A stretch of DNA of 38,266 nucleotides from Candidatus Avelusimicrobium bubulum (GTDB lineage Bacteria > Elusimicrobiota > Elusimicrobia > Elusimicrobiales > Elusimicrobiaceae), in contig CADBYN010000012.1 in the NCBI GenBank assembly GCA_902798835.1, forward strand, positions 1 through 38,266. The letters are read 5' to 3'. This document shows positions 302-25,694 of the stretch, in pieces (positions within the stretch are counted from its first letter, which is position 1; every line of letters begins with the position of its first letter). Below the pieces are notes generated by a model that worked only from the letters and a program-made list of their open reading frames with translations, had not been told where the DNA came from and did no database searches. Made by a program: the position numbers and the translations under genes.

Positions 302-1477
302 TTACTTATAAAGCAGCGTGCGGAATTCCTCGGTCTGGTTGATTGATTTAAACATCCATCCTTTTTGATTATCATCAAATAAGGCTTCATAATTTTTGAA
401 ATTATGCTTGATGGCTTTTTGCAGGTTGGCATACATATTTTTGCGATCTTTTTTAAACGTCCAATAGGTTCCGGCTAAATTTACATACGGCGTAGGGGCA
501 GACGGATCCAAGCGAATAGCTGTCTCGAAATCGGCTTTGGCTTTTTCCCATTGCTTTAAATTCATGCGAGCAAACCCACGGTTATTGTATGCCACCGCCC
601 ATTTGGGGCTTAACTCTATTGCACGCGTATAATCGGCCACGGCTTTATCAAACCGCTTTTGTTCTTCATATACTAAACCCCGGCGATTAAACCAGTAAGC
701 CTCAGGCTCTAGTTCAATAACACGGTTATAATCTTCCAGCGCCGCTTCAAAATCTCCCATATCGCGATATGTGGCTCCGCGCCATTGATAAGCAAGCGCC
801 CAGTTTTCTTTGCGGTTAATGGCTTTACTAAAAGCCGATACCGCTTCGTCTAGTTTGCCATCACTCTGAAAGATACGTCCTTGCCAAAAATGACGAGAAG
901 CCGAATCGTTCCCCAAGGCCGCCAATGCATCCACTTGTTGTTGCGCAATATCATAACGGTACGCATCCAAACTTACAGGAATAACCTCTTCCAAAGTTAC
1001 TTGAGAAGCATGTTCCCAATCTCCTACATATTTGGTGTAATCGGCCAATGCCAAATTATATCTGCCTATCGAACGATATTCACGCGCGCGGGCCAAATAA
1101 AAATTTTTATGAGACGGATTTAAGTGGATCGCCCGTGTAAAATCGGCTAACGCCAGTTGCGGTTCTTTTTGATGGGAATACGCCAGGCCGCGCGCATAAT
1201 AACGGAAAGGATCTTTCGGGCGCAACGCTACAACCTGGTTATAATCTGCAATAGCCTGCCGGTTATCCCCCAGTTTTGCATAAGCATCGGCCCGGTAATG
1301 ATAGGCATCTACATATGTGGGCGCTTGTTCAATTACCTGGGTCAGCAATTCAATTTGCGTGCGCGGATTGAGCTCCTGTTTGGCACGCTCAAATAATTGC
1401 ACGGGCGTTTGCACACGCGTCTGCGCTGACGCAACTATCCCCGTCAATAATAACACGCTTATCCATAAGTAACGCAT
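302..1477 (-). CDS. Exported tetratricopeptide-repeat protein
   Basis: A 391-residue protein with an N-terminal signal peptide (hydrophobic run about 4-17, likely cleavage after SAQ). It is then built of TPR units: repeated W/Y-x-x-R/G-x-A-Y-x-x-x-x-x-x-x-A-x-x-D-Y/F patterns around residues 55-160 and 195-360, with a less regular stretch at about 160-195. TPRs form protein-binding superhelices, so this is probably a periplasmic or envelope-attached scaffold. The partner is unknown. It is the last gene of the leftward operon that begins with the glycosyltransferase at 3562, and 15 nt separate it from the membrane-protein gene. I see no good ribosome-binding site before the ATG at 1477, so translation may depend on coupling. 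Confidence 0.85.
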   Translation of the reverse strand: MRYLWISVLLLTGIVASAQTRVQTPVQLFERAKQELNPRTQIELLTQVIEQAPTYVDAYHYRADAYAKLGDNRQAIADYNQVVALRPKDPFRYYARGLAYSHQKEPQLALADFTRAIHLNPSHKNFYLARAREYRSIGRYNLALADYTKYVGDWEHASQVTLEEVIPVSLDAYRYDIAQQQVDALAALGNDSASRHFWQGRIFQSDGKLDEAVSAFSKAINRKENWALAYQWRGATYRDMGDFEAALEDYNRVIELEPEAYWFNRRGLVYEEQKRFDKAVADYTRAIELSPKWAVAYNNRGFARMNLKQWEKAKADFETAIRLDPSAPTPYVNLAGTYWTFKKDRKNMYANLQKAIKHNFKNYEALFDDNQKGWMFKSINQTEEFRTLLYK

Positions 1478-1492
1478 ATATGTATTAAATCA

Positions 1493-2230
1493 CTATTTGA
1501 GTAAAAATACAAAATAAATATTTACAACCAACACAGCCAAGCCTATCATGTAACATAAACCCAATAATACTGTAGCAAACAAATGCAAGTTTAAAAAGAT
1601 CGCTCCTATAAGTGTAGCTTTCCCGGCGAATACTTTGCCCAATTGTATCGTGCGGCCCGACCACTTCATAATTTTAGCCGATAATACAGCCCGTACTGCA
1701 GCCGCCAACATCCCCAAACATAAAATAACAACCCCTCTAGGCAGCCCCGTTTGCTGCTGTTTAACCGAGGAAAAAACATCCCGCACGCTTCCACGCACCA
1801 AATGCGTTGCTTCCGGTTTGGTAAGCCCTACATTCATATCGGTTAATTGGCTTGCAGCACGCTCCTGCACGAGCGACAAAATATTATCAATAAATTCGTT
1901 CCATTCTACACACGCCAGCCGTAATGCCAGCACACAAGAAGTAAAAAATGAATATCCAAATGCCAATACCCCGTATATCAGCAACGCCATCCAAATACCC
2001 AGCCATTTTAGGGGTGATGGCCACGATGAAAAAAGTGTGATACAAGTGGCATACGCCATTACTAAAAAGATCCCCACCCCCCCCAACAAATGCGGTAAAA
2101 ACCACCGCTTAAGCGCCGCTGAAAAACGGCCCATCGACTCCTTAAGCAACAGGCGAACGTTGCCTTGCTCTACCTTTGAGAGTGTCAGAGCAGTAGTAGG
2201 GTTAGAAAGAGGGACCGAATCAATGTTCAT
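1493..2230 (-). CDS. Multi-pass membrane protein of unknown function
   Basis: I do not recognise this family. From the ATG at 2230 the protein has 245 residues. It has a soluble N-terminal stretch of about 40 residues, two hydrophobic segments at about 50-105, a charged central section of about 60 residues that includes ERAASQL and VRDVFSSVKQQQ, and about three more hydrophobic segments ending at the C-terminus. A GTG at 2248 would add six residues. I prefer the ATG because neither start has a clear ribosome-binding site and the ATG gives the short 11-nt overlap with the Cys-rich microprotein typical of coupled translation. It shares an operon with a GT9-type transferase and a TPR protein, so an envelope role is possible but unproven. 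Confidence 0.7.
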   Translation of the reverse strand: MNIDSVPLSNPTTALTLSKVEQGNVRLLLKESMGRFSAALKRWFLPHLLGGVGIFLVMAYATCITLFSSWPSPLKWLGIWMALLIYGVLAFGYSFFTSCVLALRLACVEWNEFIDNILSLVQERAASQLTDMNVGLTKPEATHLVRGSVRDVFSSVKQQQTGLPRGVVILCLGMLAAAVRAVLSAKIMKWSGRTIQLGKVFAGKATLIGAIFLNLHLFATVLLGLCYMIGLAVLVVNIYFVFLLK

Positions 2231-17803: not shown

Positions 17804-17834
17804 AAAAAGCCCCGCTACCTGCGGGGCTTTTTTT
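17804..17834. terminator. Bidirectional terminator between A2M gene and smpB
   Basis: Stem AAAAAGCCCCGC / GCGGGGCTTTTT with loop TACCT, followed by more T on the plus strand and by the mirrored A-run on the other. It serves two convergent genes and overlaps the smpB stop codon. Confidence 0.9.
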
Positions 17835-18303
17835 AAAACTTAATCGTGTTTTTAAATTGCTTTTCCATCTCGCGCGAGAGGTCTTTTTTCTTTAAAGATT
17901 CGCGCTTATCGTAGGTGTGTTTCCCTTTGGCAAGGGCCAGCTTTAACTTCGCCCAACCGTTTTTAAAATACACTTCTAAAGGCACAAGCGCATAGCCTTT
18001 AATTTCGGCTTTGGATTCCAACTTGCGAAGTTCCTTTTTGGTAAGTAGCAAGCGGCGCGAACGCGTGGGGTCCAATTCGGCCGAAGAATTAAATTTATAG
18101 GGTTTTATGTGCATTTGATATACACGAGCCTGCCCGTTTTCTACACGCACAAAACTTCCCTCCAGGCTCAGTTCTTTTTGGCGGATCGATTTAACCTCGG
18201 CGCCCAAAAGTTCCAACCCGGCTTGGTACGTGTCTTCGATAAAATAGTCGTGATACGCCTTACGGTTTGTGCATACCACGAGGACAGACTCTTTCTTTGG
18301 CAT
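17833..18303 (-). CDS. smpB: SsrA-binding protein SmpB
   Basis: A 156-residue basic protein that binds tmRNA and brings it to stalled ribosomes for trans-translation. Family features: NRKAYHDYFIEDTYQAGLEL, GAEVKSIRQKELSLEGSFVR, YKFNSSAELDPTRSRRLLL, KGYALVPLEVYFKNGWAKLK, GKHTYDKRESLKKKD, and a Lys-rich C-terminal tail. The length is typical. The ATG at 18303 has no ribosome-binding site, and a perfect TATAAT box ends 6 nt before it, so the transcript may be leaderless. It is divergent from hydG. The ssrA RNA gene is not in this window. Confidence 0.97.
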   Translation of the reverse strand: MPKKESVLVVCTNRKAYHDYFIEDTYQAGLELLGAEVKSIRQKELSLEGSFVRVENGQARVYQMHIKPYKFNSSAELDPTRSRRLLLTKKELRKLESKAEIKGYALVPLEVYFKNGWAKLKLALAKGKHTYDKRESLKKKDLSREMEKQFKNTIKF

Positions 18304-18358: not shown

Positions 18359-19741
18359 ATGATTATCCATGACCAAGAACTTCACAAATCCTTAGAAAAA
18401 GGTAAATCTTACACGGACGCGGATGTCGCCCGCATTTTGGCAAAAGCCAAAGAACTAAAAGGCATCTCTTTCGAGGAAGCCGCCATTTTGCTTAACTTAA
18501 CTGACCGCAAACTTTTAGACCAACTTTTTGAAACGGCCAAATACGTCAAAGAAGCCATTTACGGCAACCGCATTGTACTTTTTGCCCCGCTCTATATTTC
18601 TAACATTTGCACCAACGAGTGCGTGTATTGCGCTTTTCGAAAATCGAACACCGCGCTTAAACGCCATGCCAGCACCCGGGACGAAATTCACCAAGAAGTC
18701 ACCGCGCTACTTCAGCAGGGCCATAAACGCATTTTAATGGTAGCGGGTGAAGCTTACCCCGGCGGCACGTTGCAATACGTTTACGATAGCATTAAAGCCA
18801 TTTACGAAACCTCTTGGAACGGGCAAACCATCCGCCGCGTAAACGTAAATATTGCCCCGCTTACCTTAGAAGAATTTGCCGAACTTAAAAAATGCGGCAT
18901 TGGTACGTTTCAAGTATTCCAAGAAACGTATCACAAAGAAACGTACGAAAAGCTACATTTAGCCGGCACCAAGAAAGATTACCAATTCCGCCTAGATGTC
19001 ATGGACCGTGCCTTACAAGCGGGCATGAACGACGTAGGCATTGGGCCGCTGTTGGGGCTTTACGACCACAAATTTGAAATTTTAGCCACTCTCGAACACT
19101 CGTGGTATTTGGATAAAACCTACGGTGTAGGCCCGCATACCATTTCTATTCCGCGCATTGAACCCGCCGAGGGGAGCGAATTTAGTAAGCACCCTAACGA
19201 GGAACTCACCGACGACGAATTTAAACAATGCATTGCCGTACTGCGCCTGGCCGTACCTTATACGGGTATTATTTTAAGCACGCGAGAGCGCCCCGAAATG
19301 CGTAACGCCTGTTTAGAACTGGGGGTATCACAAATTTCCGCCGCTTCCCGCGTCAACCCGGGCGGATACTCGTACGATAAAGAAAACGGCAGCCAGTTCA
19401 CCTTAACCGACGAACGTACCCTAGCGCAGGTCATTGATGCCGTGGTGGATGCTAAGCATATGCCGTCTTTCTGCACGGGCTGCTACCGCTTAGGCCGCGT
19501 CGGTAAAGACTTTATGGACATGGCCAAACCGGGGCTTATTAAAACCCATTGTTTGCCTAACGCCATGTTCACATTTGCCGAATACTTGGAGGACTTTGCC
19601 CCCGCCCCGTTAAAGGCCAAGGGGTATGCGCTTATTGAGTCCACCGCCAAAGAATCCTTTGCCGAAGGCACGCCCATTAGAAAGATGATTGACGAGAATT
19701 TGGCAAAGATCAAATCCGGTAAGCGCGACCTGTATTTCTAA
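18359..19741 (+). CDS. hydG: [FeFe]-hydrogenase H-cluster maturase HydG
   Basis: A 460-residue radical SAM tyrosine lyase that makes the CO and CN ligands of the [FeFe]-hydrogenase H-cluster. The radical SAM motif is C84-TNE-C88-VY-C91 (CxxxCxxC). The C-terminal auxiliary cluster site is C372-TG-C375 followed after 22 residues by C398 (CxxCx22C). That spacing marks HydG; the related tyrosine lyase ThiH lacks it, so a thiamine role is unlikely. The length and whole-protein pattern (NVNIAPLTLEEFAELKKCGI, PRIEPAEGSEFS) fit the family. hydE, hydF and the hydrogenase are not in this window. A strong terminator follows at 19766. Confidence 0.96.
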   Translation: MIIHDQELHKSLEKGKSYTDADVARILAKAKELKGISFEEAAILLNLTDRKLLDQLFETAKYVKEAIYGNRIVLFAPLYISNICTNECVYCAFRKSNTALKRHASTRDEIHQEVTALLQQGHKRILMVAGEAYPGGTLQYVYDSIKAIYETSWNGQTIRRVNVNIAPLTLEEFAELKKCGIGTFQVFQETYHKETYEKLHLAGTKKDYQFRLDVMDRALQAGMNDVGIGPLLGLYDHKFEILATLEHSWYLDKTYGVGPHTISIPRIEPAEGSEFSKHPNEELTDDEFKQCIAVLRLAVPYTGIILSTRERPEMRNACLELGVSQISAASRVNPGGYSYDKENGSQFTLTDERTLAQVIDAVVDAKHMPSFCTGCYRLGRVGKDFMDMAKPGLIKTHCLPNAMFTFAEYLEDFAPAPLKAKGYALIESTAKESFAEGTPIRKMIDENLAKIKSGKRDLYF

Positions 19742-19765
19742 TAGCGTTTGCTTTATAAAGAATGT

Positions 19766-19797
19766 ATCCCCGATAGTCTTATCGGGGATCTTTTTTT
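19766..19797 (+). terminator. Intrinsic terminator after hydG
   Basis: Stem ATCCCCGATA / TATCGGGGAT (10 bp) with a GTCT loop, followed by C and seven T residues. Confidence 0.92.
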
Positions 19798-19813
19798 ATC
19801 CCTTTATTACGTT

Positions 19814-19917
19814 AATTTGTGCTAGTTCTAGGCGCGAACGAGGAAGGAATACTGCTGGCACGCGCGCGGAGCGCGTAGGTATCCGACCAAGTGAGCAACG
19901 ACGAAATAGCGCAAATT
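19814..19917. repeat. Nested inverted-repeat element of about 104 nt
   Basis: A non-coding, GC-rich block lying between two terminators. It is closed by AATTTGTGCTA (19814-19824) and TAGCGCAAATT (19907-19917), complementary with one G-U. Inside, GGAATAC (19846-19852) can pair with GTATCC (19879-19884) with one bulge, and ACGCGC / GCGCGT (19860-19865, 19871-19876) forms a hairpin with a GCGGA loop. The nesting suggests either a palindromic mobile repeat (REP- or MITE-like) or a structured RNA. I see no second copy in this window and no open frame in it. The name is unknown. Confidence 0.55.
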
Positions 19918-19925
19918 GGCAAGAC

Positions 19926-19955
19926 AAAAAGAAACCCCCCGCCGTAGCGGGGGGT
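19926..19955 (-). terminator. Intrinsic terminator of the porin gene
   Basis: Stem ACCCCCCGC / GCGGGGGGT with a 4-nt loop. On the minus strand it is followed by TTTC and TTTTT. It lies about 25 nt after the porin stop codon. Confidence 0.85.
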
Positions 19956-19978
19956 GTATTCATTCTAATAACGTTGAA

Positions 19979-21244
19979 TTAGAATTTAATTAACATGCCG
20001 ATTTGACCTTTGAAGTTATCAGGGTCATTGCGGTTGTCACGGCTGTATTCAGTGCCATATTTTTCGTTTTTGGTGTATTTAGCATAACCAAAACCAGCAA
20101 ATAATTGCACATATTCGTTGTGGTTATATTTGGCGGTTAAGTCAGCTTCATACGTGGTGGCATGACCGGTGCGAGATTGGAAGGTATAGCCATCCAAAGA
20201 GAACACCCATTTTTCAAACGGTTTGAAATCTACACCAACGTTGAACAAACGTACACCGTTGTTGCTGTAGTCCCAAATGCCATCACCACCAATCAAGTGG
20301 CCCACTAACAAACCGGGAGTATAGTTACCCATCGCCCAGAATTCCCCTTCTTCATTTCCTGATTTAGCATAGAGGAAGGTACCACGAGCAGTTACCTTTT
20401 CGATATCGGCAGCTACGTCAGCTTTTACCATATAACCGGTATCGTGATGTTCTTTGACCAAGCGATGACCACCAAAGTTGCGGGCATATTCTACACTAGC
20501 GCGAACGGCTTCTACGTTCATGCCGACTTTGGCACCATAGAAACCGCTGTGTTGGTCTTCGTCCGGATCCACGTCCTCACCATGAGCAACGATATCATAC
20601 CCATATACTTGAGCAGTCAAGTTGTCAGTGACGTTCATTCTGAAGTCAGCACCATAGAGATTGTATTTGATATCCATGAGAGGGAGCACGTCTTGCATAT
20701 CACGGCTCCAAGCATTCATATCATTGATGGTACCGGCAATCATCGTAAAGGTCTTTACATCATCGGAATAGACCAATTTGGCCGCATCGATGGAGTTGAC
20801 ATAGCCGTTCCATTCGGCGTTATAGTGGTTCGGACCAATGTACATTACGGCGCTATCTTCATCACCATAGAATTGGCGACCGACAGTTAAGTCAAAAGCA
20901 CAGAACAAGTTATGCAACACAACGTTTGCATTTACCAATTTAACGTTATCCCAATAATCTTGGACGCTTTTACCTTCGTTGGAAACGTTATCGCCCCAGG
21001 CATGAGCATATTGGAACATCAAGTTAGCGGTTACGTCTTCTACGAGTTCGGCAGAAAGACCGGCCAATACACGGCCACTCGCACCGCTGTTGTACGGATC
21101 CGCGACAAGGGGATCAACATTGTTGTGATGTACATCGCTGGCGATGGTTTGAATTTCGCCTTTTACTTCAACGTTATTAAGTACAGTTGCGCCGACAGGC
21201 CAGGACATTACCACGGCCAACAGCACGCCTAATAGTTTCTTCAT
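19979..21244 (-). CDS. Outer-membrane porin-like beta-barrel protein
   Basis: A 421-residue protein with a signal peptide (MKKLLGVLLAVVMSWPVGA). The mature part consists of alternating hydrophobic and polar strands rich in Tyr, Gly, Asp and Asn, such as VTANLMFQYAHAWGD and EYVQLFAGFGYAKYTK. The last residue is Phe (QIGMLIKF), the outer-membrane beta-barrel insertion signal. It resembles the alginate-export/porin-like proteins of Elusimicrobia and other didermic bacteria, but the substrate cannot be read. The start at 21244 has AGGAGGAG 6 nt upstream, the best ribosome-binding site in the window. The strong RBS, its own promoter and a strong terminator suggest an abundant protein. An in-frame extension up to 21490 lacks any signal and is not part of the gene. 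Confidence 0.85.
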   Translation of the reverse strand: MKKLLGVLLAVVMSWPVGATVLNNVEVKGEIQTIASDVHHNNVDPLVADPYNSGASGRVLAGLSAELVEDVTANLMFQYAHAWGDNVSNEGKSVQDYWDNVKLVNANVVLHNLFCAFDLTVGRQFYGDEDSAVMYIGPNHYNAEWNGYVNSIDAAKLVYSDDVKTFTMIAGTINDMNAWSRDMQDVLPLMDIKYNLYGADFRMNVTDNLTAQVYGYDIVAHGEDVDPDEDQHSGFYGAKVGMNVEAVRASVEYARNFGGHRLVKEHHDTGYMVKADVAADIEKVTARGTFLYAKSGNEEGEFWAMGNYTPGLLVGHLIGGDGIWDYSNNGVRLFNVGVDFKPFEKWVFSLDGYTFQSRTGHATTYEADLTAKYNHNEYVQLFAGFGYAKYTKNEKYGTEYSRDNRNDPDNFKGQIGMLIKF

Positions 21245-24374: not shown

Positions 24375-24402
24375 AAAAGCCCCGCACGCAGCGGGGCTTT
24401 TT
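24375..24402. terminator. Bidirectional terminator
   Basis: Stem AAAAGCCCCGC / GCGGGGCTTTT with loop ACGCA and a T-run on both strands. It separates two convergent genes. The hairpin core is identical, loop included, to the one at 25654-25679. Confidence 0.9.
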
Positions 24403-24417
24403 GTAATAACTACAAAT

Positions 24418-25530: not shown

Positions 25531-25653
25531 TTCCGGTTGCTCCATCTGATAAATTAAAATTGTTCACTTTCAGTGTATACCTCATTTTAACTATTTCGCT
25601 TAAAGTAGTAAATGCCCTTTAGTCCTAGGAGCCCATCTGGACCCAATACGCAC

Positions 25654-25679
25654 AAAGCCCCGCACGCAGCGGGGCTTTT
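25654..25679 (-). terminator. Terminator after the small beta-barrel gene
   Basis: Stem AAAGCCCCGC / GCGGGGCTTT with loop ACGCA. It lies about 16 nt after the stop of the leftward gene ending at 25695. The T-run on the minus strand is short (TTTGTG), so it may be less efficient. Confidence 0.7.
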
Positions 25680-25694
25680 GAATTATCTTGTTGT

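Follow-up and report, generated by a model that had tools for sequence, protein, structure and literature searches.

A dispersed, strand-specific folded element of about 130 nucleotides behind tRNA and other genes of Elusimicrobiota

Small palindromic repeats are common in bacteria. The repetitive extragenic palindromic (REP) sequences and bacterial interspersed mosaic elements (BIMEs), which go with Y1-type RAYT enzymes, are intergenic, non-coding palindromes of 20-40 nucleotides (nt) that occur in many copies and fold in a strand-specific manner. The Correia/NEMIS and RUP repeats are miniature inverted-repeat transposable elements (MITEs), which are short, non-autonomous and accompanied by target duplications. 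Integron attC sites work as a folded strand with conserved structure and variable sequence, and group IIC introns settle behind hairpins and T-runs. Here we analyze a 38,266-nt stretch of DNA from Candidatus Avelusimicrobium bubulum (contig CADBYN010000012.1, hereafter the window), in which an initial annotation had marked a palindromic block at positions 19814-19917. We found that this block belongs to a family of dispersed elements, each about 130 nt long, which fold strand-specifically and in which no genes were found.

The block is real, as first described. Its outer arms, AATTTGTGCTA (19814-19824) and TAGCGCAAATT (19907-19917), pair on the + strand over 11 positions, one of them G-T, and the homologous pairs covary across copies. 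An apical GC hairpin at 19860-19876 joins ACGCGC (19860-19865) to GCGCGT (19871-19876) through a 5-nt loop. Between arms and hairpin runs an in-register ladder of short pairs split by 2x2 steps, with its 5' side at 19831-19848 (from the fold; its G-A/G-A steps occur family-wide) and its 3' side, including the conserved GTGAGCAAC, at 19884-19899 (from the fold and the family alignment). The + strand of the block folds at -38.2 kcal/mol with a z-score of -3.24 (1 of 200 shuffles equally good), and the - strand has a z-score of -1.65 (8 of 200 shuffles equally good). The pairing seen in the initial annotation therefore stands, but its extent and form have to be redrawn: the structure reaches from about 19801 to 19930, and the "nested pairs" merge into a single quasi-helix that runs on through 2x2 mismatch steps. 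The wider boundaries come from covariance model R1, which was built from 24 copies and matches 19801-19930 on the + strand (the G-A, structured strand) over model positions 1-131 with 126 bits. Because the window copy is among those 24, this match holds by construction, and the independent evidence for the window element is its homologues in other genomes.

The initial annotation had also proposed a search for copies in this and related genomes and a covariance analysis; copies were found, and compensating changes on both sides of pairs are abundant. By nucleotide search, the window's own genome holds four copies (E ≤ 0.01); counting it, copies turned up in 9 of 41 genomes, all from a single genus. 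In the host genus, model R1 (E ≤ 0.001) detected the element in 35 of 66 genomes, at most 20 times in any one of them. Across the phylum Elusimicrobiota, a search with strict filters gave matches in 64 of 294 genomes, of which some weaker ones may be chance; the strong matches extend to further genera within the family and to one family (labeled f15) from a different class. An exact pattern, which itself fits only 27 of 94 copies, was found in 29 stretches among 84,980 species genomes. All 29 are titled Elusimicrobium, Elusimicrobiaceae or Elusimicrobia, and several of the titles name yak rumen or rectum. The same pattern had no match in viral contigs, where a diverged copy could escape it. 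The 100 copies collected for the analyses below come from regions chosen for fetching; many of the genomes are incomplete, and copies often lie near contig ends.

The family apparently has not been described so far. An Rfam search of the window returned nothing at gathering score, and the element had no Rfam match in the window or in 13 other loci, where the output was limited to tRNA, RNase P RNA and rows that fell short of the gathering score. Literature searches, judged from titles and the beginnings of abstracts, returned no description of this repeat family; in passages of one article (PMC11257099), "palindromic repeat" refers to clustered regularly interspaced short palindromic repeats (CRISPR).

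Covariation was scored in alignments (A2-A4) that were fitted to the model, so pair counts, which count sequences and not events, lean towards it. In alignment A3, which comprises 55 copies from genomes outside the model and includes one copy (L235) identical to a model copy (L121), standard pairs fill 96.2% of pair cells, and 27 of 36 pairs show two-sided changes. The covariation score was 0.524; shuffles gave 0.142, and slid partners did not exceed 0.116. Helix 6, the apical hairpin, is paired at 99.2%. The 33 copies (31 distinct) from other genera and the distant class gave similar values: 94.5% of cells are paired, 29 of 36 pairs show two-sided changes, and the covariation score is 0.557, compared to 0.146 for shuffles and at most 0.132 for slid partners.

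The fold alternates Watson-Crick steps with tandem G-A 2x2 steps on one strand. The first 2x2 step is GA/GA in 34/55 and 25/45 copies; the next is GA/GA in 20/55 and 17/45, and Watson-Crick, such as TT/AA, in 12/55 and 10/45. This exchange of GA/GA with Watson-Crick pairs within the same step suggests that the G-A steps function as paired steps. Among the 94 of 100 copies that are at least 120 nt long and free of N, the G-A strand is more stable than its complement in 84 with RNA parameters and in 89 with DNA parameters. Because the G-A strand folds better, a single strand, either RNA or single-stranded DNA, is probably the working form. We also considered snap-back synthesis as the sole origin of the arms and rejected it, as the internal loops stay mismatched.

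The copies are placed asymmetrically. Of the 100 copies, 44 have an antisense tRNA gene whose 3' end is no more than 6 nt from the 3' end of the G-A strand; none has one so close to the 5' end. Ten tRNA types, by amino acid, serve as neighbors. For the other genera and the distant class, a tRNA is found within 10 nt on the 3' side of 15 of 33 copies and on the 5' side of none, and the distant class alone abuts a tRNA within 10 nt in 9 of 12 copies. The 3' end of the element is A-rich, typically GAAAAA. Other neighbors are varied: an RNase P RNA, identified by Rfam, ends at the element at locus L230, and L122 and L110 resemble this site by eye, without an Rfam match in the short stretches examined. 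Further copies abut terminators or, by eye, promoter -35 regions, and the neighbor of the window copy is a terminator T-run. The suggestion of the initial annotation that the block lies where transcription from both sides should end thus fits many copies, which sit just past gene 3' ends and T-runs.

At six loci that were read, a stop codon lies in identical register at the element end. The genes are smpB, a HIT gene and a tyrosine recombinase, at two loci each, and one gene per pair was named by Pfam. The elements concerned are at L111:4604-4731, L224:2136-2266, L097:5717-5846, L232:2057-2186, L127:3021-3151 and L099:4875-5005. Because the stop codons of three different genes occupy one position inside the element end, the element may supply its neighbor's stop codon.

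Part of the copies are flanked by direct repeats of the target. In the 98 copies with enough flank, we searched up to 160 nt of 5' flank for similarity to 30 nt of target, and took the chance expectation from mismatched flanks. Repeats scoring at least 10 were found in 27 copies (1.35 expected), and 20 scored at least 12 (0.45 expected). Of these 27 repeats, 23 start exactly at the junction between element and target and 26 within 2 nt of it. Repeat lengths vary, and repeats inside tRNA genes tend, by eye, to stop within the T arm. The left repeat is separated from the palindrome by 1-142 nt of varied sequence, which in 10 copies contains a 57-nt 5' module (E ≤ 1e-3) that forms a hairpin with a loop that is usually TGAC. 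This module also occurs at L233:4486-4542, about 130 nt from a tRNA-Gln gene with no palindrome match behind it, possibly as part of a diverged element variant. Occupancy of one tRNA target is patchy, as judged by eye: full elements stand at 6 of the 30 tRNA-Phe loci read from the 66 genomes and likely 3'-end remnants at 4, and the remaining loci are either empty or interrupted by the end of a contig.

The initial annotation had raised two ideas, a new mobile palindromic repeat and a putative small RNA. Copies in its own and related genomes, abundant two-sided pair changes and direct target repeats at part of the copies all support the former at the level of sequence comparison. We therefore regard the family as very probably a mobile element with a preference for gene 3' ends. 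Our first, though tentative, choice of mechanism is a target-primed copying step from the T-run. The element would be copied as a single strand, RNA or single-stranded DNA, folded by the alternating Watson-Crick and tandem G-A steps. A T-run nicked just behind a tRNA or terminator would pair with the A-rich 3' end and prime the copy, and cutting of the second strand 10-19 nt away (in the T arm, for tRNA genes) would create the target repeat. The enzyme would be supplied in trans, which amounts to the behavior of a short interspersed nuclear element (SINE). Such copying would be expected to leave what is seen here: an A-rich 3' end fixed at a T-run, a 5' end that varies, and target repeats that differ in length. 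Taken as one statement, a non-autonomous mobile element with target-primed copying at gene 3' ends has about an even chance of being correct. The most specific version, a bacterial SINE-like element whose G-A-stepped folded RNA is target-primed into T-runs behind tRNA and other genes by an enzyme in trans, across more than one class of Elusimicrobiota, is rather doubtful.

Several observations weigh against this interpretation. No repeat at score 10 was found in 71 of 98 copies, and at least 4 of the 27 repeats lie in tandem or longer duplications (L095, L131, L234, L250). L109 and L217 have one spacer in common and may represent one old insertion. Target-primed copying would mainly leave copies truncated at the 5' end; in the 37 partial rows (E up to 0.5), the 3' end is retained in 20 (1 of them just shortened by the end of a contig), the 5' end in 14 and neither end in 3. 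At several loci the repeated stretch takes in some of the element's own 3' arm, and the target would have had to contain an older remnant to give this pattern. The closest non-tandem pair inside one genome is only 89.3% identical, so no recent burst is seen in the genus set. Finally, no candidate enzyme was found to track the element. Of the 35 genomes with elements, 6 encode a reverse transcriptase (RVT_1), as do 4 of the 31 without; many of these genomes are incomplete, and the enzyme may conceivably have been transient or foreign. Such genes are present in the element-rich G075 and G057 and were not found in G047, G017, G059, G050, G006, G011 and G060.

Comparisons within and between genomes indicate that many copies are old. 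Five of the 8 closest cross-genome pairs (at least 90% identical) have the same target, L121 and L235 carry identical elements and have only the left flank in common, and the targets of L113/L241 and L223/L219, also among these 8, differ as read. Copies at the same target are near-identical between genomes at the tyrosine-recombinase site (98.5%) and the RNase P site (96.2%). Three copies of equal score in G094 are tandem units, maybe of one broken array. Tandem arrays with short spacers were observed at L309 and L310 (G094), L220 (G060), L250 (G068), L095 (G011) and L096 (G020), and some of these reach contig ends.

Because no matching enzyme was found, the priming step is held with much less confidence than mobility, and an integrase-type DNA route becomes the main rival. 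According to this explanation, which we consider somewhat improbable, the T arms of tRNA genes would receive either the folded G-A strand or a small circle through an integrase or hairpin-recognizing recombinase, comparable to integron or island integrases, and the tRNA sequences flanking the insert would be att-like repeats. Tyrosine integrases commonly use attachment sites in the T arm, tyrosine recombinases occur in 66/66 genomes, and in copies with the 5' module the repeat ends, by eye, in or near the T loop. However, the targets are many and unrelated (ten tRNA types, RNase P RNA, stop codons and promoters) and are unsuited to one att core, the spacer between left repeat and palindrome varies, and an integron R-box pair near both ends was found in 1/94 copies.

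An unlikely alternative is that the element is not mobile now and acts as a functional RNA or DNA element of gene 3' ends, such as a tRNA 3' trailer, terminator helper or barrier, which is kept by selection and spread by recombination. Pairing of 94-96% across great distances, the near-identity of same-target copies and the stop codons in identical register would all fit such a function, but it accounts poorly for the patchy occupancy of tRNA-Phe, the direct target repeats and the 31/66 genus genomes without a match. Replication slippage with template switching at palindromes and T-runs, requiring no dedicated enzyme, is very unlikely: it would suit the common tandem and partial copies and arms that vary between copies while 94-96% of cells pair, but G-A steps and an AAA/GGAA-type internal loop persist uncorrected in many copies, and dispersal to unlinked loci with target repeats is left without explanation.

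In the search for partner enzymes, the Y1 transposase PF01797 was found in 3 of 25 genus genomes searched (G001, G002 and G020) and in none of the element-bearing G000, G006, G011, G017 and G019. Cas1 occurs in 13 of 66 genomes, none of them with more than three element copies. Y1 transposase, reverse transcriptase and Cas1 were rejected as partners because none tracks copy number in the genomes searched. Of the 66 genomes, 16 have at least one small stand-alone GIY-YIG gene (E below 1e-13), and 15 of these 16 carry elements (Fisher p = 1.4e-4). Of 25 GIY-YIG loci read by eye, L307 has a partial copy directly behind the gene, L303, L304 and L305 have an element beyond the tRNA-Phe that neighbors the gene, and 21 have no element within the stretch. 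The GIY-YIG gene is thus linked to the element by genome and mostly not by locus, and was rejected as a partner; the association is real, and we provisionally take it as a shared load of mobile DNA. The GIY-YIG genes often stand beside palindromic repeats of their own, GATCCTGA...TCAGGATGAC (L291, L293, L283, L289 and others). In G004 and G060, a GIY-YIG gene lies behind the orthologue of the window's radical SAM gene, at the place of the window element.

Of 100 copies, 22 have a pilin-like motif up to 1.5 kb away on the 5' side, and 12 have one at such a distance on the 3' side. Seven genes with the motif are co-oriented with the element and end less than 180 nt upstream. The motif is dense anyway, at 41 in the 543 kb of loci selected for carrying the element. 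We rejected the idea that the element delimits cassettes, as a general boundary of this kind was not found. At the tRNA loci L108, L113, L106, L118, L245, L112 and L233, the element closely follows the end of a pilin-like gene (FTLIELLVV-type motif), and at L108 (bases 701-1700, reverse strand) such a gene lies between two tRNA-Cys 3'-end copies in a cassette-like arrangement.

The setting of the window copy agrees with the initial annotation. The block lies between two terminator-like sites: one at 19766-19789 on the + strand, behind a radical SAM/BATS gene (18359-19741; terminator search and Pfam), and one at 19934-19955, found on both strands. The latter is part of the target side at 19923-19955 on the - strand, where its T-run abuts the 3' end of the element; it belongs to a - strand gene from 19979, which has no Pfam match and is porin-like by eye. 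The deviating base composition was confirmed, as the GC content of the block is 53.8%, compared to 45.5% in the 200 nt from 19601, 39.0% in the 200 nt after 19930 and 44.0% in the whole window. The block was said to contain no gene, and the sole overlapping listed frame of at least 60 amino acids is a mechanical, TTG-started one (19689-19982, + strand). Similar GC terminators (AAAGCCCCGC...GCGGGGCTTT) recur in the window at 17805-17836, 24375-24406 and 25653-25684. Judged by eye, the orthologous site in G060 has the window's terminator and a GIY-YIG gene, with a short element-like 3' remnant in place of the full element, and G015 has no element at the orthologue of the window site.

The family combines features in an unusual way: it is spread over at least two classes of a phylum, often lies at tRNA 3' ends, and has one fixed end, a strand-specific G-A ladder and compensating arm changes. 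If target-primed synthesis is correct, the element would be a bacterial counterpart of SINEs; if the integrase route is correct, it would be an integrating element of very small size with many tRNA genes as acceptable targets. By either route, the movement of non-coding DNA in a little-cultured phylum becomes testable.

In kind, the element resembles bacterial palindromic repeats and MITEs, and it departs from REP/RAYT systems, DDE MITEs, attC sites and casposons in the traits that define them. It shares with REP sequences and BIMEs the features given at the outset, but it is about 130 nt long instead of 20-40 nt and often sits at tRNA 3' ends, with target repeats; the distribution of Y1 genes given above does not fit derivation from REP/RAYT or IS200/IS605. 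DDE MITEs have terminal inverted repeats directly flanked by duplications of fixed length, whereas here the left repeat lies 1-142 nt from the palindrome, a single end is fixed and repeat length varies. The likeness to attC lies in the folded strand, but RYYYAAC/GTTRRRY boxes stand near both ends in just 1 of 94 copies, and target repeats are present here. Compared to group IIC introns, the element is merely about 130 nt long, and no intron match was found at gathering score in the window, L110, L122 and L230, or at a relaxed threshold in ten other loci. Casposons would call for Cas1, which is absent from the genomes with more than three copies. SINEs and other target-primed retroposons differ in that the host here is bacterial, reverse transcriptases do not track the element and fragments with an intact 5' end occur too (14 of 37 rows). 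Like them, however, this element has an A-rich 3' end fixed at a T-run and a variable 5' end, and 27 of 98 copies carry a target repeat, with lengths that vary.
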